From positions 1 to 33,559 of the forward strand of contig DSAE01000120.1 in the NCBI GenBank assembly GCA_011372855.1: DNA of 33,559 bases. Direction: 5' to 3'. Origin of the DNA: Desulfobacteraceae bacterium (GTDB taxonomy: Bacteria > Desulfobacterota > Desulfobulbia > Desulfobulbales > Desulfobulbaceae). A program made the translations under genes and the position numbers. The notes below the pieces were generated by a model, which worked only from the letters and a program-made list of their open reading frames with translations, ran no database searches and was not told the origin of the DNA. Position 1 is the stretch's first letter. The number at the start of each line of letters is the position of its first letter. Positions 5,036 through 29,574 of the stretch are shown one piece after another.

Positions 5036-6406
5036 ATGTTCCTCAATGCCTCCACCCTGCTCGTTCTCACGATCATCCTGTTCGGCGGACTGACCGTTTT
5101 GCTTGCCGCCCTGCTGCTTACGCTGCGCCGGGAGCATTCCCGCCGGCTTCAGCTGTCGGCCCGGGAGGAACTGCTGACCCGCGAAATCGCCGCCCTTGAG
5201 GCGACCTGCGATCGGCTCCGGGATGAACGGACCGAACTGTATGCCGAAAACCGCGACCTCTCCTCCAGATTCGCCGCCCTCCAAACGACCGTCGCCGAGG
5301 CGGGAAAACAGTCCGCCGATCACCGTGCCCTGCTCGAGAAGACCCGTGAACAGATGGAAAAGGAATTCGAGCTGCTGGCCGGCAGGATCCTCTCGGAAAA
5401 AGGCGCGGCCCTCACCAACAGGCATCAGGACGAACTCAACACCATACTGGCCCCTGTCCGCCAGCAGATCGCGGAATTCAGAATGAAGGTGGAGGATGTC
5501 TATGACCGGGAATCGAGGGACCGGGTCTCCCTCATCAAGGAGATCGAACATCTGAAACTCCTCAATCTCCGGATCAGCGAAGACGCAATCAATCTGACCA
5601 ACGCCCTCAAGGGGCAGAACAAGATGCAGGGCCTGTGGGGGGAACTGGTACTGGAGCGGCTGCTGGAGGACTCCGGTCTGACCCGCGGCCGGGAATTTGA
5701 CCTCCAGGTCTGCCTCAAGGACAATCGCGGCAAATCCCGCTTGCCGGATGCCGTTGTCCGGCTCCCCGGCGGCAGGCAGATCGTCATTGACGCCAAGGTT
5801 TCGCTGACGGCCTATGAAAAGGCGTGCCGAGCCGGGGAGGAGGACGAACGTCAAGGCTGCCTGCGGGGTCACCTCGATTCCCTGAAAAAACACATCGCGG
5901 GGCTGGCGGCCCGGGAATACCATCTCCTGGACGGCGTCAACGCGCCGGATTTTGTCGTTCTCTTTCTCCCGGCGGAGGGTGCGTTCCAAGCGGCGGTGAC
6001 CATGGAGCCCGCTCTGCTCACCCGCGCCATGGAGCAGAAAGTGATCCTCTCGTGCCCCTCGACCCTGCTGGCAATTCTGCGCACGATCAACCACATGTGG
6101 CGGCAGGACGAGCAGGCCCGCAACAGTTTAGCTATTGCCAAACAGGCGGGGAGTCTATATGATAAGTTCATCGGGTTCATTGAAGCATTTGAAGAAATCG
6201 GCGCCCGCCTGCACCAGAGTCACGAAGCCTGGAACAGGGCCAGAAATCGCCTGACCACCGGCAAGGGGAATCTCATCACCCGGGCCGAAGCGCTCAGGGA
6301 ACTGGGGGTGCAGAGCAGCAAAAACCTGCCCCGGTCCATATGCTCCGAGGAGGAAGGACGTTGCCCCGGTGCAACCAAGAAAGGAACTGACGGTACAGCC
6401 AACTAA
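5036..6406 (+). CDS. rmuC: DNA recombination protein RmuC
   Basis: N-terminal TM plus coiled coil, then LKGQNKMQGLWGELVLERLLEDSGLTRGREF and VIDAKVSLTAYEKA. Confidence 0.93.
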   Translation: MFLNASTLLVLTIILFGGLTVLLAALLLTLRREHSRRLQLSAREELLTREIAALEATCDRLRDERTELYAENRDLSSRFAALQTTVAEAGKQSADHRALLEKTREQMEKEFELLAGRILSEKGAALTNRHQDELNTILAPVRQQIAEFRMKVEDVYDRESRDRVSLIKEIEHLKLLNLRISEDAINLTNALKGQNKMQGLWGELVLERLLEDSGLTRGREFDLQVCLKDNRGKSRLPDAVVRLPGGRQIVIDAKVSLTAYEKACRAGEEDERQGCLRGHLDSLKKHIAGLAAREYHLLDGVNAPDFVVLFLPAEGAFQAAVTMEPALLTRAMEQKVILSCPSTLLAILRTINHMWRQDEQARNSLAIAKQAGSLYDKFIGFIEAFEEIGARLHQSHEAWNRARNRLTTGKGNLITRAEALRELGVQSSKNLPRSICSEEEGRCPGATKKGTDGTAN

Positions 6407-6423
6407 AAACCATGGAGGATGCT

Positions 6424-6873
6424 ATGAAACATTTTATTGTCGTCCCGCTCATAATCGCGTGTTTTTTCCTTGCTTCCTGCGCGGATATGCCGAAGAAAGG
6501 CCAGTACGGCGCAGTCGGCGGGGCAGCAGGCGGCGCCCTGCTCGGCCAGATCATCGGCCATAACACCGAGGCCACCCTGATCGGCGCCGCCATCGGCGGC
6601 CTGCTGGGTTACATTGTCGGCAACGAGATGGACAAATATGACCGCGAACAGCTGAACCATGTCTATGAGCGCGGTGTCTCCGGATCGTCGTCTTCGTGGA
6701 TCAATCCGGACAGCGGCAACCAGTACCGGGTGACCCCGCAGCCGGCCTACAGCGCCACCGGCAACCAGGTCTGCCGCAAGGCGGAGATCCAGGCCATCAT
6801 TGACGGAAAAACAGAAACCACCTATGCCACGGCCTGTCGCGACGAAAACGGAGTCTGGCAGGTCCAGCCGTAG
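6424..6873 (+). CDS. Glycine-zipper lipoprotein (17 kDa surface antigen / YMGG-like)
   Basis: Lipobox LASC after a signal peptide; GAVGGAAGGALLGQIIGHNTEATLIGAAIGGLLGYIVGNEMD glycine zipper. ATG at 6424 is preferred over 6412. Confidence 0.85.
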   Translation: MKHFIVVPLIIACFFLASCADMPKKGQYGAVGGAAGGALLGQIIGHNTEATLIGAAIGGLLGYIVGNEMDKYDREQLNHVYERGVSGSSSSWINPDSGNQYRVTPQPAYSATGNQVCRKAEIQAIIDGKTETTYATACRDENGVWQVQP

Positions 6874-6874
6874 C

Positions 6875-7282
6875 ATGACATCGGCGGCGGGGAAATTTCC
6901 CCTGTCCACCTCCAGCCGCATGGAGATGGTGGACATCACCGCCCAGGTCCAGGAGGCCGTTGCCGGCAGCGGTGTCGACAGCGGCCTCTGCACGGTATAC
7001 AGTCCCCATACCACCGCCGGCCTGACCATCAATGAAGGCGCCGACCCGGCGGTCCGGCAGGATCTGGTGGGCGTGCTGCGGCAAATGGTTCCGCTCGACT
7101 TCCCTTACCGCCACCAGGAAGGCAATTCCCCCGCGCACATGATGACGACCCTGACCGGCGGCAGCGTCACGGTGTTCATTGAATCGGGACGCCTCCGGCT
7201 CGGCACCTGGCAGCGCATCTTTTTCTGTGAGTTCGACGGCCCCAGGAATCGCACCGTCTGGTGGAAGATTCTCCAGGGATGA
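6875..7282 (+). CDS. YjbQ family protein (UPF0047)
   Basis: VYSPHTTAGLTINEGADPAVRQDL...YRHQEGNSPAHMMTTLTGGSVTVFIESGRLRLGTWQRIFFCEFDGPR. Start taken as the ATG right after the previous stop. Confidence 0.92.
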   Translation: MTSAAGKFPLSTSSRMEMVDITAQVQEAVAGSGVDSGLCTVYSPHTTAGLTINEGADPAVRQDLVGVLRQMVPLDFPYRHQEGNSPAHMMTTLTGGSVTVFIESGRLRLGTWQRIFFCEFDGPRNRTVWWKILQG

Positions 7283-7283
7283 C

Positions 7284-7532
7284 ATGCCTTCAGATCGCAC
7301 CGGCTCAGCCGACAATATCGTCTTCGGCCTGACCAGGGCGGAGGATGAAAGGTCGCTGGCGGCCTTTCTCCGGCTGTTCAGCGAGGATGAACTGCTGTCC
7401 ACGCTCATCCCCAGGATGAGCGACGATGAAATCCGCCGCGTCGTCCAACTGCTCACCGAGATCATGCGCAACCACCTGAGCGGTCAGGAATACCATTCCC
7501 TTTTCCTTGGCGGCCGCGACCACTCGCACTGA
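7284..7532 (+). CDS. Small conserved-looking hypothetical protein (82 aa)
   Basis: Starts 2 nt after the yjbQ stop; amphipathic helical sequence EDERSLAAFLRLFSEDELLSTLIPRMSDDEIRRVVQLLTEIMRNHLSGQEYHSLFL. Confidence 0.65.
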   Translation: MPSDRTGSADNIVFGLTRAEDERSLAAFLRLFSEDELLSTLIPRMSDDEIRRVVQLLTEIMRNHLSGQEYHSLFLGGRDHSH

Positions 7533-7555
7533 GCCGTCCGCGGAGAACCACCGGC

Positions 7556-9328
7556 ATGCCTCCCATTGACAACCTGCGCTCCTTTCTTGAGCTCCTCAAA
7601 AAGGAAGACGAGCTGCTCACCATCGACACCCCTGTCGATCCCTATCTGGAAATTGCCGAAATCCACCGCCGGGTCATCGCCCGCGGCGGGCCGGCCCTTC
7701 TGTTCACCCGCGTCAGGGATTCATCCTTTCCGGTCGTCACCAACCTGTTCGGCACCAACCGCCGCATCGAACTGGCCTTCGGCTCCCGGCCCCTCGATTT
7801 TGTCCGCCATCTGGTCGAACTCATCGAACACCTCATGCCCCCCTCCCTCGAGACCCTGTGGCGGGCACGGCCCCTGCTCAGCCAGGCCCTGAAAATCGGC
7901 ATGAACACCACGCGGCGGGCGCCCATCCTTGAATGCTGTCAGCGGCCGGCCCGGCTGACCACGCTGCCGATGCTCACCTCATGGCACAGCGACGGCGGCG
8001 CCTTCGTCACCCTGCCCCTGGTCTACACGGAACATCCCGACGGCAGCGGCCACAACCTCGGCATGTATCGCATCCAGCGCCATGATGACCAGACCACCGG
8101 CATTCACTGGCAGATTCACAAAGGCGGCGGCTATCACTACCATGCGGCTGAACGGCTCGGCCAGGCCCTGCCCCTGACCCTGTACATCGGCGGACCGCCG
8201 GCCCTGATGCTGGCCGCCATCGCCCCCCTGCCCGAGGATATCCCCGAACTCATGCTCGCCTCGCTCCTGCAGGGCAGCAGACTGGCGATGACCCCGGACC
8301 CCCTCGGCGGTCACCGGCTTGTCGCCCAAACCGAATTCGCGGTGAAAGGGATCGTGCCGCCCGGAATCAGGCGGCCGGAAGGACCGTTCGGCGACCACTA
8401 CGGGTACAACTCCCTGCAGCACGACTATCCGGTTTTTCAGGCCACCCACCTCTATCACCGAAAAGATGCCATTTACCCGGCCACGGTCGTCGGCCGCCCC
8501 CGGCAGGAGGATTTTTTCATCGGCGACTTTCTCCAGGACCTGCTGTCGCCGCTTTTTCCCCTGGTCATGAAGGGTGTGCGGCAGTTGAAGACCTACGGCG
8601 AAACAGGATTTCACTGCCTGGCTGCCGCCCGCGTGGCAAACCGCTATCCCCGGGAGGCCTTCGCCGCCGGTCTGCGCATTCTCGGCGAGGGTCAGCTGTC
8701 GTTGACCAAGTTTCTCATCGTCACCGACGGCGACCTCGACGCCGGGGACTTTCCCCGCCTGTGGGTCCATGTGCTGGAACGGGTGCAATGGGACGAAGAC
8801 CTGTTCATTTTCGCCAACGTCTCCCAGGACACCCTTGACTACACCGGCCCGTCGGTCAATAAAGGATCCAAGGCCATGCTCATGGGCCTCGGCGGGGACA
8901 AGCGGCGCGATCTGCTCCAGGAGTTCTCCGGCACCGTGCCCGACGGGTGCCGCCGGCCGACGGTCTTCCTTCCCGGCACCCTGGTTGTGGAAGGTGCGGA
9001 CTACGGCGGCGCCCCCGCTCTGGCTGAACAACTGGCCCGATGGCCCGGGCTCGGCGACTGGCAGGCGGTGCTCCTGGTTGATTCCGTCGGCGAGGCGACT
9101 TCCAGCCTGCAGGAGTTTCTCTGGACCTTCTTCACCCGGTTCGAACCGGCCGCCGACATTCACGGCGCCGCCCAGTCGGTCCGCCGTTTCCATGTCGGCC
9201 TCACCCCCCCGGTCGTTTTTGACTGCCGCATGAAGCCCTGGTACACCGAGGTGCTCGAAGTCGATCCGCAAACCAGGGCACTGGTGGACGGGAAATTCAA
9301 CGCAATGATTCCGTCCCGCTGGCGCTGA
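7556..9328 (+). CDS. UbiD family decarboxylase
   Basis: 590 aa: IHRRVIARGGPALLFTRV, NLGMYRIQRHDDQTTGIHWQIHKGGGYHYH, PEGPFGDHYGYNS. Confidence 0.93.
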   Translation: MPPIDNLRSFLELLKKEDELLTIDTPVDPYLEIAEIHRRVIARGGPALLFTRVRDSSFPVVTNLFGTNRRIELAFGSRPLDFVRHLVELIEHLMPPSLETLWRARPLLSQALKIGMNTTRRAPILECCQRPARLTTLPMLTSWHSDGGAFVTLPLVYTEHPDGSGHNLGMYRIQRHDDQTTGIHWQIHKGGGYHYHAAERLGQALPLTLYIGGPPALMLAAIAPLPEDIPELMLASLLQGSRLAMTPDPLGGHRLVAQTEFAVKGIVPPGIRRPEGPFGDHYGYNSLQHDYPVFQATHLYHRKDAIYPATVVGRPRQEDFFIGDFLQDLLSPLFPLVMKGVRQLKTYGETGFHCLAAARVANRYPREAFAAGLRILGEGQLSLTKFLIVTDGDLDAGDFPRLWVHVLERVQWDEDLFIFANVSQDTLDYTGPSVNKGSKAMLMGLGGDKRRDLLQEFSGTVPDGCRRPTVFLPGTLVVEGADYGGAPALAEQLARWPGLGDWQAVLLVDSVGEATSSLQEFLWTFFTRFEPAADIHGAAQSVRRFHVGLTPPVVFDCRMKPWYTEVLEVDPQTRALVDGKFNAMIPSRWR

Positions 9329-9329
9329 C

Positions 9330-10073
9330 ATGGAGGAGCGGCTGCAGAAGATCCTGGCCCGGGCCGGTGTCGCCTCGCGCCGCAAGGCCGAAGAATTGAT
9401 CCTCCAGGGCAGGATTGCCGTGGACGGCAGGGTGGTGACCGAGCTCGGCGCCAAAGCCGATCCCCACGCCGCCAAGATAACCATCGACGGCCGCCCGGTC
9501 GCCGCGGAAGAAAAAATATACCTGCTCCTCAACAAACCCGCCGGCTATGTCACCACCCTCGCCGACCCCCAGGGAAGACCCATCGTCACCGACCTGCTGA
9601 CCGGCATCCGGCAGCGGGTTTTCCCGGTCGGCCGGCTTGATTACGACACCGAAGGCGCCCTGATTCTGACCAATGACGGGCAGCTGGCCCATTTCATCCT
9701 CCACCCCGGTTACGAAGTCAACAAAACCTATTTCGCCGTGGTCAAGGGTTCTCCGTCAGAGGGCAACATCAACCTGCTGCGGGAAGGCATCGTTCTGGAC
9801 GGCCGGCAGACCTGGCCGGCCCTGGTCCGGGTGGTGGCCCGGAAAAAAGGGACAACATCCCTGGAGATAACGATTCACGAAGGAAGAAAAAGACAGGTGC
9901 GGCGAATGCTTTCGGAAATCGGCTACCCTGTCATCACCCTGAAAAGAACGGCGTACGGGAACCTCAAACTCGGCTCCCTGCCCCCGGGCTCGTACCGGCT
10001 CCTCACCAAAAAAGACCTGAAAAAAGTGTTTTCCGGTAAAATCCCCTTTACTTTCAAAAAATTACCTGATTAA
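9330..10073 (+). CDS. rluB: 23S rRNA pseudouridine synthase, RluB/RsuA family
   Basis: S4 domain (ERLQKILARAGVASRRKAEELI), YLLLNKPAGYVTTLADPQGRPIV, FPVGRLDYDTEGALILTNDG, IHEGRKRQVRRM. Confidence 0.93.
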   Translation: MEERLQKILARAGVASRRKAEELILQGRIAVDGRVVTELGAKADPHAAKITIDGRPVAAEEKIYLLLNKPAGYVTTLADPQGRPIVTDLLTGIRQRVFPVGRLDYDTEGALILTNDGQLAHFILHPGYEVNKTYFAVVKGSPSEGNINLLREGIVLDGRQTWPALVRVVARKKGTTSLEITIHEGRKRQVRRMLSEIGYPVITLKRTAYGNLKLGSLPPGSYRLLTKKDLKKVFSGKIPFTFKKLPD

Positions 10074-10110
10074 ATTTAAGTAGTTATCGAAGACGGCCCG
10101 CCCGTAAGTC

Positions 10111-10133
10111 AAAAAACCGGGCAGGCGCGCCCG
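10111..10133 (-). terminator. Intrinsic-terminator-like hairpin plus T6 on the minus strand, with no minus-strand gene upstream
   Basis: Minus-strand CGGGC-GCGCCT-GCCCG-GTTTTTT. Arms at 10118-10122 and 10129-10133, A-run at 10111-10116 on the plus strand. Confidence 0.5.
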
Positions 10134-10261
10134 CAAGGAGTTGCCGCCCTGATCCGTCAGCGGTTTCTGCGGGGCAGACCGGATGGCCGTCTTCACACGG
10201 ATGAGGTTCCATAACCGCCAATGGTATTGCTTTTGTGTGCGGCTCAACGGGAGAGAACAGC

Positions 10262-10561
10262 ATGAACAAATCTGAACTGATCGAAGCTCTGGCCGAAAAA
10301 ACCAGCCTGTCCATCCGCGAGGCAAGTTCCATTACCAACACCCTCATCGATACGATGAGCGATGCCCTGGCGCAGGGTGATTCCATCGAAATCCGCGGAT
10401 TCGGCAGTTTTGTGGTCAAGGAGTATGATTCCTACATCGGCCGCAACCCGAAAACCGGCGAAAAGATCAAGGTGGCCCCGAAAAAGCTTCCTTTTTTCAA
10501 GGTCGGCAAGGACCTCAGGGAAAAAGTGAACCAGCTGCGGAAAAAGAAAAGCGCGAAGTAA
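10262..10561 (+). CDS. HU/IHF-family DNA-binding protein (IHF-like)
   Basis: MNKSELIEALAEKTSLSIREASSITNTLIDTMSDALAQGDSIEIRGFGSFVVKEYDSYIGRNPKTGEKIKVAPKKLPFFKVGKDLREKVN. Confidence 0.95.
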   Translation: MNKSELIEALAEKTSLSIREASSITNTLIDTMSDALAQGDSIEIRGFGSFVVKEYDSYIGRNPKTGEKIKVAPKKLPFFKVGKDLREKVNQLRKKKSAK

Positions 10562-10566
10562 TTCCG

Positions 10567-11910
10567 CTAATCACTCCCCTCCTCTGCGATCTCGCCAACG
10601 AGGTCGTAGGTATGGGCTTCGGTAATGCGCACCCCGACGATGTCCCCGGGATCTGCCGTCCCCGAGGTGATGTACACGCAGCCATCGATATCCGGGGCCT
10701 GGTAGCGCGTCCTCCCCTCCAGCAGCAGATCGCTTTCCCTGCTGACCCCCTCAACCAGCACCGGTTCGATGCGGCCGACATATTTTTGCAGGCACCGGGC
10801 GCTGACTCCAGCCTGCACTTGCATGACCCGGTCATAGCGCCGCTGTTTTTCTTCCTCGCCGATCTTGCCCGGCAGAAGAAATGCCGGACTGCCCTCTTCA
10901 TCGGCGTACCGGAACAGCCCCACGTGGTCGAGGCGCCATTTTTCCAGACAGGCGGTCATCGCCTCGACATCCTCCTCCATTTCCCCGGGAAAACCGACCA
11001 TCAGTGTGGTTCGGACCGCGCAGCCGGGAAGGGTGCTCCTGATCCGGCCAAGCAGGCGGTCAAGGTCCCCGCCGGTGTACGGCCGATTCATCCCCCGCAG
11101 CACGGCGTCGCTGACATGCTGAAACGGAATATCAAGGTACGGAAGGATGCGTTGTTCCCTTGCCATCAGGGCGAGCAGGGCGGCATTGATGCCGGTCGGA
11201 TAAAGGTAGAGCAGGCGGATCCAGGGGATGCGCGTTGCGGCGAGGAGTCCCTCCAGCAGAGCGGGCAGGTCCGTGCCGTTGCGCAAATCCTTGCCATAGG
11301 CGGTCAAGTCCTGGGCGATCAGGGTCAGCTCGCGGACGCCCTTCTCTTCCAGCTGCCGGGCTTCCGCAACCAGATCATTAATCGTTCTGCTCCGCAGATT
11401 GCCGCGCAGGGACGGGATCATGCAGTAGGAACAGCGATTGTCGCATCCCTCGGTTATCTTCAGGTACGATCTGAAAAAAGGGGTGGAAAGCCGGCGGGGG
11501 GCCGAACTGTCCATCAGGAATCGCGCCGGCCTGAGGTCCAGCAACGGGCTGCCGTCGGCAAAAGCACGGCGGATGAGGACATCGATCTCCTGGAACCCGT
11601 CCGTACCGGTAAAAAGATCGACCTCGGGCAGTTCGTTCCGCAATTCCCGGCCGTAGCGCTGGACAAGACAACCGGTCACCACCAGCATTTTTGCCGGATC
11701 CCGGCGCTTGTATTCCGCCAGGCGCAATATCGCATCAACCGCCTCCTCGACGGCGGAAACGATGAATCCGCAGGTATTCACCAGCAGGAGGTCGGCCTCG
11801 GCCGGATCCGGGACAACAGTGTAGCCGTCCCGCTCCAGGCACCCCAGCATGACTTCGGAATCAACCAGATTTTTCGGGCAACCCAAACTGACTAAATGAA
11901 GACGCTTCAT
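10567..11910 (-). CDS. rimO: Ribosomal protein S12 methylthiotransferase RimO
   Basis: LVSLGCPKNLVDSEVMLG, radical SAM ITEGCDNRCSYCMIPSLRGNLRSR, C-terminal TRAM domain. Confidence 0.96.
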   Translation of the reverse strand: MKRLHLVSLGCPKNLVDSEVMLGCLERDGYTVVPDPAEADLLLVNTCGFIVSAVEEAVDAILRLAEYKRRDPAKMLVVTGCLVQRYGRELRNELPEVDLFTGTDGFQEIDVLIRRAFADGSPLLDLRPARFLMDSSAPRRLSTPFFRSYLKITEGCDNRCSYCMIPSLRGNLRSRTINDLVAEARQLEEKGVRELTLIAQDLTAYGKDLRNGTDLPALLEGLLAATRIPWIRLLYLYPTGINAALLALMAREQRILPYLDIPFQHVSDAVLRGMNRPYTGGDLDRLLGRIRSTLPGCAVRTTLMVGFPGEMEEDVEAMTACLEKWRLDHVGLFRYADEEGSPAFLLPGKIGEEEKQRRYDRVMQVQAGVSARCLQKYVGRIEPVLVEGVSRESDLLLEGRTRYQAPDIDGCVYITSGTADPGDIVGVRITEAHTYDLVGEIAEEGSD

Positions 11911-12100
11911 GCCAATTCATCCTGAAGGCGACACGGGCCGAACGCTCACCGCCCGCGTGCCGGAATCGAGGCAGAACCGACGAATCCGGTCTCGAAACAG
12001 TTTATTGGGGAAATAATCACCAAGGAAACAGCCGGCCGGACGCAAACCAGCCGACCGCCGTTCCAGGGACAACAACATATATGATGCCCGCCGGTTTGCA

Positions 12101-12138
12101 AATAAAAAAAGGGCTGCAGCACATTGTGCCGCAGCCCC
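12101..12138 (-). terminator. Intrinsic terminator of the F0 ATP synthase operon
   Basis: Minus strand GGGGCTGCGGCACAATGTGCTGCAGCCC followed by TTTTTTTATTT, about 30 nt downstream of the atpE stop. Confidence 0.85.
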
Positions 12139-12169
12139 GATGATCAACAGATCCTGTCCGGTAATCGGT

Positions 12170-12454
<285 letters not shown>

Positions 12455-12512
12455 TTATATATTGGCCTTCTTCACTACAACTTGATTGCTTTATGCATTG
12501 TTCAGTGCCCCA

Positions 12513-13235
12513 TCAATGGGCGTGCTCCATGGCCTGCGCGCAGTACAGGACGGACAGCAGGGTAAAGACCAGGGCCTGGATCAGGGAAACCAGGACGCCG
12601 AGGCATAAAATCGGCAGGGGGGCGAAGTACGCGCCGGCCAGCATGAACAGAACCGACAGCAGCGTTTCCTTGGCCATGATGTTGCCGAAAAGCCTCATCG
12701 ACAGGGAAAGCAGCCGGGCGGCATTGGAAATCAGTTCGATGGGCAGCATGAGCGGAATCAGCAGCGGCATCGGTCCGAGAAAATGTTTGATATAGCCGAG
12801 CCCGTGATACCGCAGGCCGAGGACATGGTGGGTCAGCCAGACCATGATGGTCATGCCCAGGGTGATGTTGAGATTGGAGGTCGGCGACATAAAGCCGGGA
12901 ATCAGTCCGATCAGGTTGGCGATGACAATGTACAGGGCAAAGGTGGCCAGAAACGGGAACAGCATGCGGGCACGGTCCCGCCCCATGTTCTCGGCAAAGA
13001 AGTTTTCCATGCCGCCGATGACGATCTCCCAGAAATTCTGCCCCTTGCCGGGAAAGATTTCCAGCCGGCCCATGGTCAGCTTGGGAACGATGATCCAGAA
13101 GGCCATGACCAGCCAGGTATAGGTCATGTACGGCGTGCACAGCTTTTCCAGCAGCGTGTGGCCGGTGATTGTATGCGGTACGGGCAGACCCAGTGCTTCA
13201 AGAATAACATTGATGAAAAGAATCGGATGTTCCAT
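12513..13235 (-). CDS. atpB: ATP synthase F0 subunit a
   Basis: LIPGFMSPTSNLNITLGM, LLSLSMRLFGNIMAKE (essential Arg). Confidence 0.95.
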   Translation of the reverse strand: MEHPILFINVILEALGLPVPHTITGHTLLEKLCTPYMTYTWLVMAFWIIVPKLTMGRLEIFPGKGQNFWEIVIGGMENFFAENMGRDRARMLFPFLATFALYIVIANLIGLIPGFMSPTSNLNITLGMTIMVWLTHHVLGLRYHGLGYIKHFLGPMPLLIPLMLPIELISNAARLLSLSMRLFGNIMAKETLLSVLFMLAGAYFAPLPILCLGVLVSLIQALVFTLLSVLYCAQAMEHAH

Positions 13236-13238
13236 GCG

Positions 13239-13697
13239 TTATGCCCCTTTAAAACGTTGCGCCGAATACAGCATGCTCCCCTTGCCTATGACAACCACAA
13301 TGATACTGAACATGATGGTCGACAGACCGACAATCAGGCCGATGACGTCGATGCTGACCCGGGTGATCAGCAGATAGAGAACGAGGGCCAGAACCGCCAG
13401 CCGGCCGTAAAATTTAACGAAAAAATTGACCTTTACCAGGCTTTTGACTGCCTGCCAGCTCATGCCGGCCTGACTGAAATTATCCATGAAAACGGCAACA
13501 TCACGTCGCAGGAAAAAAAAGCTGATATTTGCCAGCAGTCCGCCGATAAGCACGCTTTGCGCCCGGGGCCAGGAAAAGACGTACCAGGCCCCCGCAATCA
13601 ACACCGCAAGCAGAATCCAGTTGAAACGCTGAATATATGCCAGCAGCCGGGTTCCGGCCTCCACCGCTGTCCCGGCCTGTTGTTGCGATTCCCCCAT
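13239..13697 (-). CDS. atpI: ATP synthase subunit I-like membrane protein
   Basis: Four predicted TM segments, located between atpZ-like and atpB. Confidence 0.75.
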   Translation of the reverse strand: MGESQQQAGTAVEAGTRLLAYIQRFNWILLAVLIAGAWYVFSWPRAQSVLIGGLLANISFFFLRRDVAVFMDNFSQAGMSWQAVKSLVKVNFFVKFYGRLAVLALVLYLLITRVSIDVIGLIVGLSTIMFSIIVVVIGKGSMLYSAQRFKGA

Positions 13698-13698
13698 G

Positions 13699-13926
13699 TT
13701 ACTCGTCCGACATGCGCTTCGTCAACTGCCAGAGATTCTTGAAGCCGGCGGCAATGCCGAATCCAAGAAATATAAACGTCAGATAGGGCGCCGTGCGGCC
13801 GTCAAACACTTTGTTGTCCAGATACCAGCCGATCCCGAAGCCTACGAAAATACAACAGACAAAGGTAATGCCGACATGACTGTAGACACCCAGCTGCCTG
13901 AAAATCTCCTTGCGCGTTTCAGACAT
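13699..13926 (-). CDS. AtpZ/AtpI family protein
   Basis: 75 aa, two TM: GITFVCCIFVGFGIGWYLDNKVFDGRTAPYLTFIFLGFGIAAGFKNLWQLTKR. First gene of the F0 cluster. Confidence 0.8.
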   Translation of the reverse strand: MSETRKEIFRQLGVYSHVGITFVCCIFVGFGIGWYLDNKVFDGRTAPYLTFIFLGFGIAAGFKNLWQLTKRMSDE

Positions 13927-14010
13927 GGTTCACTCCCTTTGTCTGCGTCATTCCGACAGGGATGACCGTTTCAGTGGTAGCACGACTAACCGGCAAACGC
14001 AATGATTTTT

Positions 14011-15303
14011 TTACTGATCGCCAATTTTTTTGAATGACGATTCAGTCATATTCAGCGCTTTCTCAAGCTGTGCGCGGTCATGTGCGGCCGAGACGAAAGC
14101 GGCTTCAAACTGGGACGGAGCCAGCCAGACTCCTCCGGCCAGCATGTACCGGTAATGTCGGCCGTACCGTTCCGTATCGGCTTTCATGGCCGTGGCGAAA
14201 TCCCTGACCGGGCCTTCGGTGAAGAAGCAGGTCATCATCGAGCCGATGCGGTTGAGGACCGTGGGAAAGGAGGCGTTATCGGCGATCCGCTGCAACCCCT
14301 CGGCAAAGCGGGAGCTTTTTTCCTCCAGCTCATCGTAGAAACCCGGCTTGCGCAACTCCTTGACAAGCGCCAGGCCGGCCGCCATGGCCAGGGGATTGCC
14401 GGACAGCGTGCCGGCCTGGTAGACCGGTCCCTCCGGAGCGACGGTGTCCATGATTTCCTTTTTCCCTCCATAGGCGCCGACCGGCAGGCCGCCGCCGATG
14501 ATCTTGCCCAGGCAGGTGAGGTCGGGCATGATGCCGAACCGCTCCTGCGCTCCGCCCAGGGCCAGCCGGAAGCCGGTGATGACCTCGTCGAAAATCAGGA
14601 TTATGCCGAGTTCACTGGTTAATTCCCGCAATTTGCGCAGAAAGTTCAATTCCGGGACGATGACCCCCATGTTGCCGGCCACCGGTTCAACTATGACGCA
14701 GGCGATGGCGAGAGCCGGGTCACGCAGGGTCTGCTCCAGGGTCTCCACGTCATTGTACGGGATGGACAGGGTGTTTTTGACAATATCCTCCGGGACCCCG
14801 GGACTGCCGGGTATGCCGAGAGTAATCACCCCGGAGCCGGCCTTGACCAGGAACGAATCGGCATGGCCATGATAGCACCCGTCAAACTTGACCACCACAT
14901 TGCGGCCGGTATAGCCGCGGGCCAGGCGGATGGCGCTCATTGTGGCCTCGGTGCCGGAATTGACGAAGCGGACTTTTTCCAGGGACGGGACCGAATCGCA
15001 GACGAGTTCGGCAAGTTCGACCTCCAGGGGGGTCGGCGCCCCGAAGCTCGTGCCGTCCAGGGCCGTCTGCCGCACCGCCTCGACCACCGCCGGATGGGCA
15101 TGGCCGAGGATCATGGGCCCCCAGGAACCGACGAAGTCGATGAATTCATTGCCGTCGACATCGGTAATGGTCGCTCCCCGCGCCTTGCTGACAAAGAGCG
15201 GGTCGCAGCCCACCGACTTGCACGCCCGCACCGGGCTGTTGACGCCCCCGGGAATGAACATTCTGGCTCGGGCAAAAAACTTGGCGGAGAGTTCTGTCTT
15301 CAT
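14011..15303 (-). CDS. hemL: Glutamate-1-semialdehyde 2,1-aminomutase
   Basis: FIPGGVNSPVRACKSVGCDPLF, VGSWGPMILGHAHP, NSGTEATMSAIRLARGYTGR, LGKIIGGGLPVGAYGGK. Confidence 0.96.
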   Translation of the reverse strand: MKTELSAKFFARARMFIPGGVNSPVRACKSVGCDPLFVSKARGATITDVDGNEFIDFVGSWGPMILGHAHPAVVEAVRQTALDGTSFGAPTPLEVELAELVCDSVPSLEKVRFVNSGTEATMSAIRLARGYTGRNVVVKFDGCYHGHADSFLVKAGSGVITLGIPGSPGVPEDIVKNTLSIPYNDVETLEQTLRDPALAIACVIVEPVAGNMGVIVPELNFLRKLRELTSELGIILIFDEVITGFRLALGGAQERFGIMPDLTCLGKIIGGGLPVGAYGGKKEIMDTVAPEGPVYQAGTLSGNPLAMAAGLALVKELRKPGFYDELEEKSSRFAEGLQRIADNASFPTVLNRIGSMMTCFFTEGPVRDFATAMKADTERYGRHYRYMLAGGVWLAPSQFEAAFVSAAHDRAQLEKALNMTESSFKKIGDQ

Positions 15304-24983: not shown

Positions 24984-25615
24984 AACTTGTCATCTTCGAC
25001 TGCGACGGTGTCCTGTTTGATTCCCGGGAAGCCAACCGCGCCTACTATAATCACCTGCTCGCCCGCTTCGGCTGCCCCCCGATGGACGAGGATGACCTCG
25101 ATTACGTGCATTCCCACAACGTCACCGATTCCATCGCCCACATCTTCCGCAACCAGCCCCTGATCAAAAGGGAGGCCGCCGACCGGTATCGGACCGAACT
25201 CGATTACGGTCCCTTCCTGCGCTACATGGTAATGGAGCCGGACCTGCTCGATTTTCTGCGCCTGATCAAGCCGAAATACCACACGGCCATCAGCACCAAC
25301 AGAACCACCACCATGCCGATGCTCCTTGACATCTTCCGCCTTCGACCGTGGTTCGACCAGGTGGTGACCGCCCTCGATGCGCCGCGGCCCAAGCCGGCGC
25401 CCGACGGCCTCTATATGATCCTGGACAATTTTCAGGTGGACGTCGACGAGGCCATTTATATCGGCGACAGCGAGGTTGATCGCGAACACACGAGGATCGT
25501 GGGGATGCGGCTCATCGCCTTCAAATCTCCCTCCCTCGAGGCCGAATACCACGTTGACAGCTTTACGGCCATTCCCCGGCTTGAACCATTCACCCGGACG
25601 AAAGAGGAGCGATGA
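24977..25615 (+). CDS. HAD-family hydrolase (phosphoglycolate phosphatase-like)
   Basis: MLKLVIFDCDGVLFDSREANRAYYN, KPAPDGLYMIL, AIYIGDSEVDREHTRIVGM. Confidence 0.9.
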   Translation: MLKLVIFDCDGVLFDSREANRAYYNHLLARFGCPPMDEDDLDYVHSHNVTDSIAHIFRNQPLIKREAADRYRTELDYGPFLRYMVMEPDLLDFLRLIKPKYHTAISTNRTTTMPMLLDIFRLRPWFDQVVTALDAPRPKPAPDGLYMILDNFQVDVDEAIYIGDSEVDREHTRIVGMRLIAFKSPSLEAEYHVDSFTAIPRLEPFTRTKEER

Positions 25616-26094
25616 TCCTGTTCATGGAACACGACATGCTGATGAGCGGACCCGACCGTGAAACCTGCGAACAGCATATTCGCCTGTTTTTCGATAAATC
25701 CCAGTTGGTCCACTATGACTCCATCGATTTCGACCGGGCCAACTCGGTCAATGGCACGGACGGGCGGTTTGAAGAGCTGTTGAGCAGCGCCATAGCCGGG
25801 AACCGCCAGGTGCTGTCCGACCTGCTCAACAAACTGCGGCAGGAAGGCTGCACCTCCCTTGACGACCTGCTGGTCATGCCGCAGGGATTCATGAGCAAGC
25901 TGCTGCACACCATGTGCCACCTGCTGGATGGTTTTTTCGGGGTGGACTCCCGCTTCTTCGACATCGATGAGATTTCCCACTGGCTGACGGAAAACCGGAA
26001 ACAGGAAATTGCCCGGTCCCCGGAGCAGTGCTGGCTTATCCGGGTACAGGGCCGCTCCGTCTATGGCCAGGGGTTTGAAGACAGGGAGGATTAA
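25612..26094 (+). CDS. Hypothetical protein (160 aa), last gene of the secDF operon
   Basis: ATGA overlap with the HAD gene; soluble acidic protein with no motif recognised. Confidence 0.75.
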   Translation: MILFMEHDMLMSGPDRETCEQHIRLFFDKSQLVHYDSIDFDRANSVNGTDGRFEELLSSAIAGNRQVLSDLLNKLRQEGCTSLDDLLVMPQGFMSKLLHTMCHLLDGFFGVDSRFFDIDEISHWLTENRKQEIARSPEQCWLIRVQGRSVYGQGFEDRED

Positions 26095-26141
26095 CCTGCC
26101 GGTTTGCTGCCGGTTTGTCGCTCATCCGGTCTTTTGATTCC

Positions 26142-26163
26142 TTCCATGAGCAGCATCATGGAA
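26142..26163. repeat. Perfect inverted repeat TTCCATGA-GCAGCA-TCATGGAA
   Basis: 8-bp arms at 26142-26149 and 26156-26163 in intergenic DNA. Confidence 0.7.
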
Positions 26164-26298
26164 TCGCCGATTTCCGCCACCGCGGTCAGGGCGGCCGGTA
26201 TCCGGAATGAGGAAGATGCTCACCCACCCGTTCTCCGATCGTCATGAACCGGCCGCCATTCCGGCTGCCTCCGGGCGCTGCCCTTGCAAAAAAGCTTC

Positions 26299-26327
26299 TT
26301 GTTGGAACTATTCGAATACTATACAAT
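26299..26327 (+). promoter_or_regulatory. Sigma70-like promoter for the E2-like/TPR gene
   Basis: TTGTTG - 17 bp - TACAAT; ATG at 26408. Confidence 0.5.
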
Positions 26328-26407
26328 AAGTGACCAGGGAGGCTGTCAGCCGGCCGGCCGTCCGGATCCTGTTTCGCCGTTTTCATCATTCACTGTGCAG
26401 GTTTACC

Positions 26408-29335
26408 ATGTCCGTTGACGTGCAGCAGCTTCAATCCGATTTCGCGCGGGTCAAAAAAATCCTCGCCTTGTATCCCGGCAGTATCACCCTCCTGCAAACC
26501 CGGGGAGATCCGCCCGAGAGCTATGACATTGAATACAATGTCAAGGGCTACAGGGCAAATCCGGATGGAACCGCTTCTCCCGCGGACAGGCATCTGATCC
26601 GCATATCCCTTCCCTTCGGCTACCCCCATTCTGCCCCGATCGTCAAACCCCTTACCCCGGTTTTTCATCCCGACATGGACCCCGATGCTGTCCGGATAGC
26701 CGACTTCTGGGAAAAACATCAATCCCTGCCCGAACTGATCGTTCATATCGGTCAAATGATCTGCGGGGCCCGGTGCAGCACCCGGGAACCGCTCAACCAG
26801 CGGGCTTTCGACTGGTATGAGGAACACAAGTCACTGCTGCCCTTTGCGGAGCTTGCCCCACGGAAAAATGAAACGGATGACGATGGAGCCTGGCCCGGGG
26901 GAGGCGCAACGGCGAGCGGCGACAACCGCTTCACGGGCATTGATCGCGCCGGGAAACAGACCCCGGGCGACGCGGAGACCGGACCGAAATCCCCTGTAGA
27001 ACTGCCGGGCGACGATTTCCCCTTTGCACTGGAACTGGAAAGCAAGGGCGGGGCCGGGGCCGGGCAGGGACTTGAGGATTGGACCGCTATTCAGGAAAGC
27101 GGGGATTTTCCCTTCGAGGACGAGGGCTCAGGTAATACGGTCCGGACCGGCGCTTTCCCGGAAGAGCCGCCGGCCGAAATGGAGGATATTTTCGACATCG
27201 CCTTTGAGCCTTCCGCTGACGAGGCGGCTCCGCCGGGCTCGGATATGCCTGGCGAAGGCGGCGCAACGGATCTGAACGGGCCTGCCGGTTTCCGGGAAGG
27301 GTCCGGGTCATCCGGCCGCTCCGGGGCCGATGACCGGCTGGAACCGGAAGAGGAAATCATTGCCCTTGACCTCGATAGCGATGAATCGCTGCGGCCTGCC
27401 GGATCAGGGCGGGCCGGCAGACAAAAGAAGGCCGGGACAGAGGACAGACTCGGCCTGGAGGGACTCTCCCTGGAACTGGACGAGGACCCCTCGCGGAGAT
27501 ATGGCGGACCCGCCCGATCGATCGCTCCTCTCATCGAGCAGAAAGAAATTTTTACCGCCAAAAAGGTGCTGGCCGAACTCGAAGAGCCGGAAACGGTCGC
27601 CGATCTGGAAGAATACCGGCAAACCATTGCCGACGCGATCAGCAGGGCCGATGAACTGTATAAAAAGGCCGATCAACATAAACAAAACGGCGAACTGGAA
27701 AAAGCCGGCATCATGCTCGACCTGGTCGCCAATATCGCCATTGACTATCCCGGCCTGGAGTTTGCCCGCAACCGGATCCGGGAATCCCTCATGGCCCTGG
27801 GACAGAAAAAACCGCCCCCGCCTCCCGCGGAGAAAAAAGAACCGGCTGCCGAGGGCAAGGACCGGAAAACCACGGAGGAAACAGCCCCGGTGAGAAAGCC
27901 TCGCCGGCAGACCAGGGTCAAACTGCCGTTGAAACTGATCGCCGCCGTCCTTGTCGCAGCCGTTTGTTTCGTCGGCGGCGCCCTGCTGTTCAAAAACGAT
28001 TCGGAAAACATCCGGCTGGCACAACAGGAATTCGAAAACGGCCGCCGGCTCATCCAGGACAAGGATTTCCAGCCTGCCCGGCAGGCGTTGGACAGTGCCC
28101 GGAGCGCACTGGACAACATTCTCCTTCTGCACCCCTCCGCAAAACACGACCTGCGGACGGAGATCGACACCATCCTCAACTCCCCTGCATACAAGGAGGG
28201 CCTGCGGGGAAGGGTCCTGTACGATGGCCGCTATATCAGTATCGAAACGGCCAGGGCCATTGATCAATTCAAGCTGCTGACCGAAGCCGCGGAAACCTCT
28301 CGGCAGGAGGGACAACTGGACCGGGCGGTCGAATCCTACGAACAAAGCCTTGTCCATCTTGAACCGGCCGGTTTGCAGGAGCGTGAGCAGGAGATCCGGC
28401 AGACCATCACTGCCCTGCGGCTGCAGCAGAGCCTCAACCTGGCCGCTGAAGCGGAAAAAAGCGGGGCATGGGAACAGGCTGCCGCTGCCTACCGGCAAGC
28501 CCTGGAACTCCCCGGCGCCTTCCCCTCACTGGAGAACCGTGAACAGGTCGAGCTGCAACTGGCAACCGTTTCCTTCCGGCGGGAACTGGACGCCGGCAAA
28601 CGCGCTTACAACGCCTCGGATTGGCAGGAATCCATGACCGCCCTGGAACGGGCGCAGCACATTCTCTCCGCCCAGCCGACCATCGCCGAAAGCCGGGAAG
28701 CGGCTGAACTGGCCAAAATGCTGATCAACTCCCGGCTGTTCCACCAGTTGGCGATCGCCAGAACGGCCTTTGAACTGCAGCAATGGGATCGGGCGGTGAC
28801 CGAGTATGCGAAAGCGGTTGCCCTGATTGACGAAAACGCCGCCATGCTGGGAAATGAGGAGGCCGCCGACAGTAAAAGGAAAATAGAACGAACCACCCTG
28901 ATGACCCGCATTGCCGGGGAGCAGCAACGGCTCGACAACACCCTGGAGCTTGGCGACCTGGAGGTGGCAGTGGCGCAATACCGGGTCATTGCCCGTCTCA
29001 TCGAGGAGAGTCCCTTCCGGGATGACGAAATCCTCGGCAAAACCCTTGAACATACCCGCCATCGGACCAACGACCTGGAAAAAGAACTGCTGATCAACCG
29101 GAGGATCGACTGGCTCACGCAGAATGCCGAGCGGATCTTCAGGGAGCATTATCCGTCGGCGAAACTGTCGGAACTGTCGAATCCGAACGTCTCCTTCATC
29201 AGGCGGGAGGGCAACATCATGATCTTTGCCATGAGTTGTACGGAAAGGCGCCAGGGAAGGGTGTTCCGGCTGGAACTCAACTACCGGTACGACCTGGACA
29301 CCGACACCTGGAACATCTACTCGGGAAAATTATGA
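26408..29335 (+). CDS. Membrane protein with N-terminal E2/UBC-like (catalytic Cys absent) domain, acidic low-complexity linker, one TM helix and C-terminal TPR-like region
   Basis: E2-like pattern: YDIEYNVKGY...HLIRISLPFGYPHSAPIVKPLTPVFHPDMDPDAVRIADFWEKHQSLPELIVHIGQMICGARCSTREPLNQRAFDWYEEH. TM LIAAVLVAAVCFVGGALLF preceded by RKPRRQTRVK. Helical repeats such as AAETSRQEGQLDRAVESYEQSLVHLEP and EKSGAWEQAAAAYRQALELPG. Confidence 0.75.
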   Translation: MSVDVQQLQSDFARVKKILALYPGSITLLQTRGDPPESYDIEYNVKGYRANPDGTASPADRHLIRISLPFGYPHSAPIVKPLTPVFHPDMDPDAVRIADFWEKHQSLPELIVHIGQMICGARCSTREPLNQRAFDWYEEHKSLLPFAELAPRKNETDDDGAWPGGGATASGDNRFTGIDRAGKQTPGDAETGPKSPVELPGDDFPFALELESKGGAGAGQGLEDWTAIQESGDFPFEDEGSGNTVRTGAFPEEPPAEMEDIFDIAFEPSADEAAPPGSDMPGEGGATDLNGPAGFREGSGSSGRSGADDRLEPEEEIIALDLDSDESLRPAGSGRAGRQKKAGTEDRLGLEGLSLELDEDPSRRYGGPARSIAPLIEQKEIFTAKKVLAELEEPETVADLEEYRQTIADAISRADELYKKADQHKQNGELEKAGIMLDLVANIAIDYPGLEFARNRIRESLMALGQKKPPPPPAEKKEPAAEGKDRKTTEETAPVRKPRRQTRVKLPLKLIAAVLVAAVCFVGGALLFKNDSENIRLAQQEFENGRRLIQDKDFQPARQALDSARSALDNILLLHPSAKHDLRTEIDTILNSPAYKEGLRGRVLYDGRYISIETARAIDQFKLLTEAAETSRQEGQLDRAVESYEQSLVHLEPAGLQEREQEIRQTITALRLQQSLNLAAEAEKSGAWEQAAAAYRQALELPGAFPSLENREQVELQLATVSFRRELDAGKRAYNASDWQESMTALERAQHILSAQPTIAESREAAELAKMLINSRLFHQLAIARTAFELQQWDRAVTEYAKAVALIDENAAMLGNEEAADSKRKIERTTLMTRIAGEQQRLDNTLELGDLEVAVAQYRVIARLIEESPFRDDEILGKTLEHTRHRTNDLEKELLINRRIDWLTQNAERIFREHYPSAKLSELSNPNVSFIRREGNIMIFAMSCTERRQGRVFRLELNYRYDLDTDTWNIYSGKL

Positions 29336-29574
29336 TGGTGATGATGGTGGTGGTGGTGGTCGTTGCCCGGTTTTCCGCCTGATTTGCGCAGAGCTGCTTC
29401 CAGTGCCGCGTCCGCCTCCCGCAGTGAGGCGTCGGCCTGCTCCAGCAGTTCCGCAATCTCCCCGCGCCCCGCGGCGCGCATCAGTTCCGCCCATTTGGCG
29501 AATTCCCGCCCGTGGTCCCGGTTGTGTTCCAGCCAATGCGGAAGAAGGACCCGCAGCTTATCCACGTCGTTCAT
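29317..29574 (-). CDS. Small helical protein with a C-terminal His9 tract (probable metal, likely Ni, binding)
   Basis: MNDVDKLRVLLPHWLEHNRDHGREFAKWAELMRAAGRGEIAELLEQADASLREADAALEAALRKSGGKPGND-H9-NFPE. Adjacent to a cooT-like gene. Confidence 0.85.
   Translation of the reverse strand: MNDVDKLRVLLPHWLEHNRDHGREFAKWAELMRAAGRGEIAELLEQADASLREADAALEAALRKSGGKPGNDHHHHHHHHHNFPE

Follow-up and report, generated by a model that had tools for sequence, protein, structure and literature searches.

A degenerate E2-like domain on a membrane-anchored TPR protein of Desulfobulbales, encoded divergently from a DUF4388-family gene

The window analyzed here, a whole 33,559-nt stretch of DNA from a Desulfobacteraceae bacterium (contig DSAE01000120.1), encodes at 26408-29335 on the plus strand a 975-aa protein in which an E2/UBC-like domain is followed by a single transmembrane (TM) helix and a TPR-containing half (hereafter the E2-TPR protein). 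We think it probable, at roughly 0.6, that the protein is a membrane scaffold linked to a DUF4388-family regulator, with the exapted pseudo-E2 as its docking domain in the cytoplasm. The E2 fold itself is already known; what is unusual is the architecture, which comes with a natural series of Cys- and Arg-bearing orthologs. The start codon (ATG at 26408) agrees with the starts in relatives, and the protein gives the one match to the Pfam UQ_con model in the window's 2.7-Mb draft genome. No NCBIfam family covers the protein, and no description of an E2-TM-TPR protein was found in the literature searched, which left subscription papers mostly outside its coverage.

The original prediction of an E2-like N-terminal domain was borne out at the level of both sequence and structure. 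The first 151 residues match UQ_con with an E-value of 4.5e-6 and 26.8 bits, just below the cut-off of 27.0, and the Prok-E2 model gave no match to the 975-aa protein in the Pfam output. A profile built from 78 relatives and searched against the PDB retrieved UBE2C at E=1e-8, and the best 60 of the 258 matched PDB sequences were all E2 chains. AlphaFold2 modeled residues 1-151 with a pLDDT of 92.6 and a pTM of 0.89, and the best 50 PDB matches of this model in Foldseek were E2 enzymes or complexes containing one. The top match was UBE2K (6.5e-6, probability 1.0, TMq 0.67), and chain 8qat_D (TMq 0.68) from the FTS-Hook-FHIP complex is also among the best; FTS is an inactive E2. Since the profile, AlphaFold2 and Foldseek evidence agree and the sequence and structure searches are independent, a chance resemblance to E2 was ruled out, and an E2/UBC fold for residues 1-145 (26408-26842, plus strand), predicted to be cytoplasmic, is well supported by profile matches and models.

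The remainder of the protein also follows the expected single-pass layout. Residues 146-509 (26843-27934) form an acidic, low-complexity linker with the lowest identity and the highest dN/dS of the protein; it includes a short helical/TPR-like stretch at about residues 385-455 and a basic patch adjoining the membrane, and is weakly similar to the cytoplasmic region of homologs that have no E2 domain (see below). One TM helix is predicted at residues 510-528 (27935-27991). Of 75 family members, 55 have more Lys and Arg ahead of this helix than behind it (reversed in 9, equal in 11), so an N-in/C-out topology fits the positive-inside rule and the E2 domain is predicted to lie in the cytoplasm and the TPR half in the periplasm, as first proposed. 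The putatively periplasmic TPR/alpha-solenoid, residues 529-920 (27992-29167), matches Pfam TPR_11 with 30.6 bits (cut-off 26.8). In the AlphaFold2 model, the TM and TPR half (pLDDT 93) consists of a single long helix, alpha-hairpins and, at the end, a meander of four strands; Foldseek returned for this half mostly TPR proteins with low TM-scores and no closer functional relative. The C-terminal beta-meander (29168-29332, plus strand), seen as strands in the model, is conserved in the alignment and contains the family-invariant Cys944 and Trp968. At the 3' end of the gene lies a small convergent gene at 29317-29574 (minus strand) that is conserved beside the E2-TPR gene in many relatives; its 85-aa product has a run of nine His near the end and gave no significant Pfam match.

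In a single pairwise comparison with the nearest relative, dN/dS was 0.19 for the E2 domain, in keeping with purifying selection, 0.41 for the linker, 0.32 for the TPR part and 0.08 for residues 901-975, which are the most constrained part of the protein. This constraint, together with the occurrence of the TM, TPR and beta half without E2 in other families of the order, could mean that the E2 domain is purely structural, serving for example folding or oligomerization with no ligand of its own, and that the periplasmic TPR and beta domain is the functional part. We regard this as unlikely, because across families the E2 domain has a mean column identity of 59-62% and the TPR half one of 33% (the two row sets differ), and conservation above that of the TPR half points to a surface that binds something. 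The docking reading is also consistent with the window's protein having an E2 fold without Cys that is conserved under selection, as in inactive E2 adaptors of the UEV/RWD kind: an E2 domain retained although its active site is gone fits a binding surface.

The active-site segment is degenerate in the window's protein. In the alignments it runs from His87-Pro88-Asp89 to Arg96 (26666-26695, plus strand), and Arg96 occupies the catalytic Cys position. The Cys had been predicted to be missing, with Ile97 at His+10 as its equivalent; the absence holds, but the equivalent residue has to be corrected. The HMMER alignment to UBE2C places a one-residue gap after HP(N/D), which puts the catalytic Cys opposite Arg96 (His+9), and this register is confirmed by sister families that carry Cys in the same His+9 column. 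The HPN motif is changed as well, with Asp in place of Asn in the window's protein and in 75 of 81 aligned rows, those bearing Cys included. HPN is kept in two relatives outside the family (L159 and L160), the former of which also has the Cys. Having lost both the Cys (to Arg) and the HPN Asn (to Asp), the window's protein should not form a ubiquitin (Ub) thioester, and the sequence strongly predicts that it is inactive as an E2.

Lack of the Cys, which had been taken as a property of the protein, stands for the window's ortholog and fails as a family trait. Across the 81 rows the column contains Arg in 55, Cys in 20, Ala in 2, and Lys, Asp, Gly and Thr in one each. In a wider sample of the order, with family codes read as f1 for Desulfobulbaceae, f3 for Desulfurivibrio-type bacteria and f12 for Desulfocapsaceae, most f12 genera and one f6 genome have Cys, three f3 genera have Lys or Arg, and Tyr, Ser and Pro turn up in isolated cases. 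The Tyr (L239) and Ser (L219) are nested in Cys clades and look like losses. An ancestral Cys that was lost several times is likely. Rooted parsimony with equal costs does not discriminate (6 against 5) and favors an ancestral Cys only when gains cost more than losses; its deep root, L159/L160, is weak, being the junction of two long branches.

These orthologs raise the question of whether the Cys-bearing sister families have a working membrane-anchored E2, which a general E1 such as MoeB/ThiF would load with a Ub-fold protein for attachment to substrates at the inner membrane; the Arg lineage would then represent a loss. Most Desulfocapsaceae genera and some Desulfurivibrio-type members carry the Cys in the exact catalytic column; its context there, FHPDFDxxAICIGDFW, resembles in the AICIGDFW part the canonical ICLDIL, and it persists over long divergence with few exceptions; an outside relative with both HPN and Cys lies inside a Ub-like operon. 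Retention in most Desulfocapsaceae genera suggests chemistry there and not pure scaffolding. On the other hand, the HPN Asn is replaced by Asp in the Cys-bearing rows too, the column shifts to R, K, Y, S, P, A and G while the gene is kept, no YukD-type Ub-like match was found in the Cys-bearing genomes tested (G050 and G421, which gave no JAB match either), and a Cys thioester is impossible at the Arg96 site of the window's protein. We therefore judge a live E2 in the sister families to be rather unlikely. The more specific version, that it does without a dedicated cassette and is loaded with some Ub-fold protein by a general MoeB/ThiF-type E1, would be quite unlikely.

The claim that the locus has no Ub-like cassette was upheld, and this agrees with the docking reading for the window's protein. 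No E1, Ub-like or JAB genes were found beside the E2-TPR gene at its loci, and the window's genome gave two ThiF-like matches and no YukD-type Ub-like or JAB match. Bacterial E2 domains often accompany E1, Ub-like and JAB genes (PMC1779556, PMC11354881), which could place the protein in an anti-phage or Bil/CBASS-like system. However, the PADLOC search gave no significant match (E2 model E=0.047), and the gene is near-core in a conserved housekeeping neighborhood, the wrong setting for such a system, in a genome with neither YukD-type Ub-like nor JAB partners; with no E1/Ub-like/JAB operon at hand, this candidate was rejected as very improbable.

The closest outside relative found is a 361-aa protein in genome G388 that has HPN and Cys and scores above the UQ_con cut-off. 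The operon around it encodes a YukD-type Ub-like protein (2.8e-16), a ThiF E1 (1.3e-54), a JAB protein (7e-13), a Prok-RING_1 protein (1.4e-8) and an FHA membrane protein. Together with the E2, which also has a zinc ribbon, these genes make up a complete Ub-like cassette at 8936-14443 (minus strand) of contig C35 of this genome (L161). Its occurrence is sporadic: of the 46 genomes examined from its class a single one has it, as expected for a mobile cassette. Across 395 genomes sampled evenly from the phylum, UQ_con matched only the E2-TPR family, G388 and G081. The last encodes, at 6757-9918 (minus strand) of contig C63, a protein of 1054 aa whose N-terminal E2 is Cys-less (UQ_con above cut-off) and is followed by long helical/TPR repeats; the 645 aa scanned contain no TM helix. 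This is a second bacterial E2-plus-repeat architecture. Other Desulfobulbales families contain homologs of the TM and TPR half (L184, L185, L186 and L187) in which a helical, TPR-like cytoplasmic region replaces the E2, the E2 domain not being detectable, and the partner gene described below was not found beside them. The simplest account would be that an E2 domain from a Ub-like cassette was fused onto the TM and TPR chassis, a direction of domain exchange that we infer from these relatives.

The E2-TPR gene is near-core in its family, within a group of sulfur-cycling bacteria. A first pass over 36 genomes sampled from the family, among them the window's own, gave matches in 34, and a search of the order found the gene in 171 of 258 genomes of the order and in 71 of 74 genomes of the family (f1), nearly always as a single copy. 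The named records that carry it are Desulfobulbaceae, among them cable bacteria, Desulfocapsaceae and Desulfurivibrio-type bacteria.

The suggestion that this is an orphan architecture did not survive comparison of these loci. Directly upstream, 61 of the 71 loci with enough upstream sequence carry an opposite-strand gene, always divergent and with a median intergenic gap of 232 bp, and it is present also where the remaining neighborhood differs. Its product combines an N-terminal CPxY...CSGCTGLIKF domain with DUF4388 (3.8e-21 in L069), which we take to correspond to PATAN, and in many lineages also contains a cNMP-binding domain. The nearest relative, L069, has an intact copy at 6070-6753 (minus strand). 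In the window, which belongs to a draft genome, the last ~40 codons are left as a 3' remnant at 26094-26219 (minus strand). We assigned it to the DUF4388 family from its HMM match (E=4e-8), its 68% identity to the C-terminus of the L069 protein, the domains of intact copies and a blastn breakpoint, where two matching stretches overlap in the window and the ~585-620 bp that separate them in L069 are absent. A paralog lies elsewhere in the genome (G000:C87) and might substitute for the truncated partner. Between the remnant and the E2-TPR gene, the intergenic region 26220-26407 corresponds to the divergent upstream region shared by relatives; a simple scan found no sigma70-like promoter in it.

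The partner gene was not found in 10 of the 71 loci, eight of them cable-bacteria-clade-like and two short Arg-type Desulfocapsaceae loci. In the former (L082, L092, L106, L109, L112, L121, L125 and L138), drawn from Electrothrix, Electronema and rows that group with these, the E2-TPR gene is retained. Since it is missing in these ten loci and truncated in the window, the partner is not essential for the E2-TPR protein. Gene order alone suggests a tie between the E2-TPR protein and the DUF4388 regulator.

Other neighbors were considered and set aside. A chromosomal neighborhood with SecDF, YkgJ-like, HD, HAD and KpsF genes (names assigned by eye) is kept across Desulfobulbaceae and Desulfocapsaceae. 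The secDF and kpsF neighbors are not shared by the Desulfurivibrio-type loci, where the DUF4388 gene is present, so we read them as inherited synteny and rejected a functional tie. Upstream of the E2-TPR gene, 25612-26094 (plus strand) encodes a 160-aa protein with no Pfam or NCBIfam match; it was rejected as a partner because it is confined to part of the Desulfobulbaceae, where it is kept upstream.

In our working model, the E2/UBC domain would have been joined to the TM and periplasmic TPR chassis within Desulfobulbales. The pseudo-E2 head would dock a cytoplasmic protein and present it at the inner membrane, and the periplasmic TPR and beta domains would bind an envelope partner. The whole may then be a signaling or assembly scaffold with cytoplasmic input through the DUF4388 (PATAN-like)/cNMP regulator class; docking, signal transfer and direct contact with the DUF4388 partner are what we infer from the architecture and gene order.

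Three groups of known systems offer comparison. First, the UEV proteins (UBE2V, TSG101), RWD domains and FTS/AKTIP share with the window's protein an E2 fold without the catalytic Cys, and in eukaryotes they are binding or docking modules. The protein described here differs from them in being bacterial and fused to a TM helix and periplasmic TPR half, and its family differs in having no Ub pathway found and a Cys in many orthologs. Second, the E2s of Ub-like/E1/JAB operons (PMC1779556; BilB, PMC11354881) are likewise bacterial E2 folds, some of them inactive, and the polyUbl operons include inactive RWD-like E2 domains (Iyer et al. 2006, PMC1779556); the G388 relative sits in an operon of this kind. 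These operonic E2s adjoin E1, Ub-like and JAB genes, whereas the E2-TPR protein is near-core and membrane-anchored without them and matches UQ_con and not the Prok-E2 models of Pfam. Third, PilB, the pilus motor of Synechocystis, is bound by the PATAN regulators PixG, PilG and TaxP2 (PMC10519157), and pilus control in M. xanthus involves the TPR regulator SgmX (PMC11580455). The likeness consists of a DUF4388 partner, a TPR protein and regulators that act by binding, while the partner described here carries other domains (cNMP-binding and the CPxY...CSGCTG N-terminal domain). The analogy offers a lead towards a pilus role for the E2-TPR/DUF4388 pair and is no evidence of one.

What is known of bacterial E2s comes mainly from Ub-like operons. 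In a 2024 survey, bacterial proteins homologous to the catalytic domains of human E2s appeared only as single instances in four phyla, and Desulfobacterota was not one of these (PMC11354881). Here a membrane-anchored UBC domain is near-core in whole families, and its catalytic column varies between Cys and Arg, Lys or other residues among orthologs that partly share synteny. With this natural Cys/Arg series, how an E2 becomes a pseudo-E2 is directly testable in bacteria, and the DUF4388 gene provides a concrete first partner candidate. If the Cys-bearing proteins are live E2s, the Desulfobulbales would hold a series from operonic E2 through free-standing E2 to pseudo-E2 scaffold. The family suggests how a bacterial E2 may leave its pathway and become a membrane-tethered binding module.
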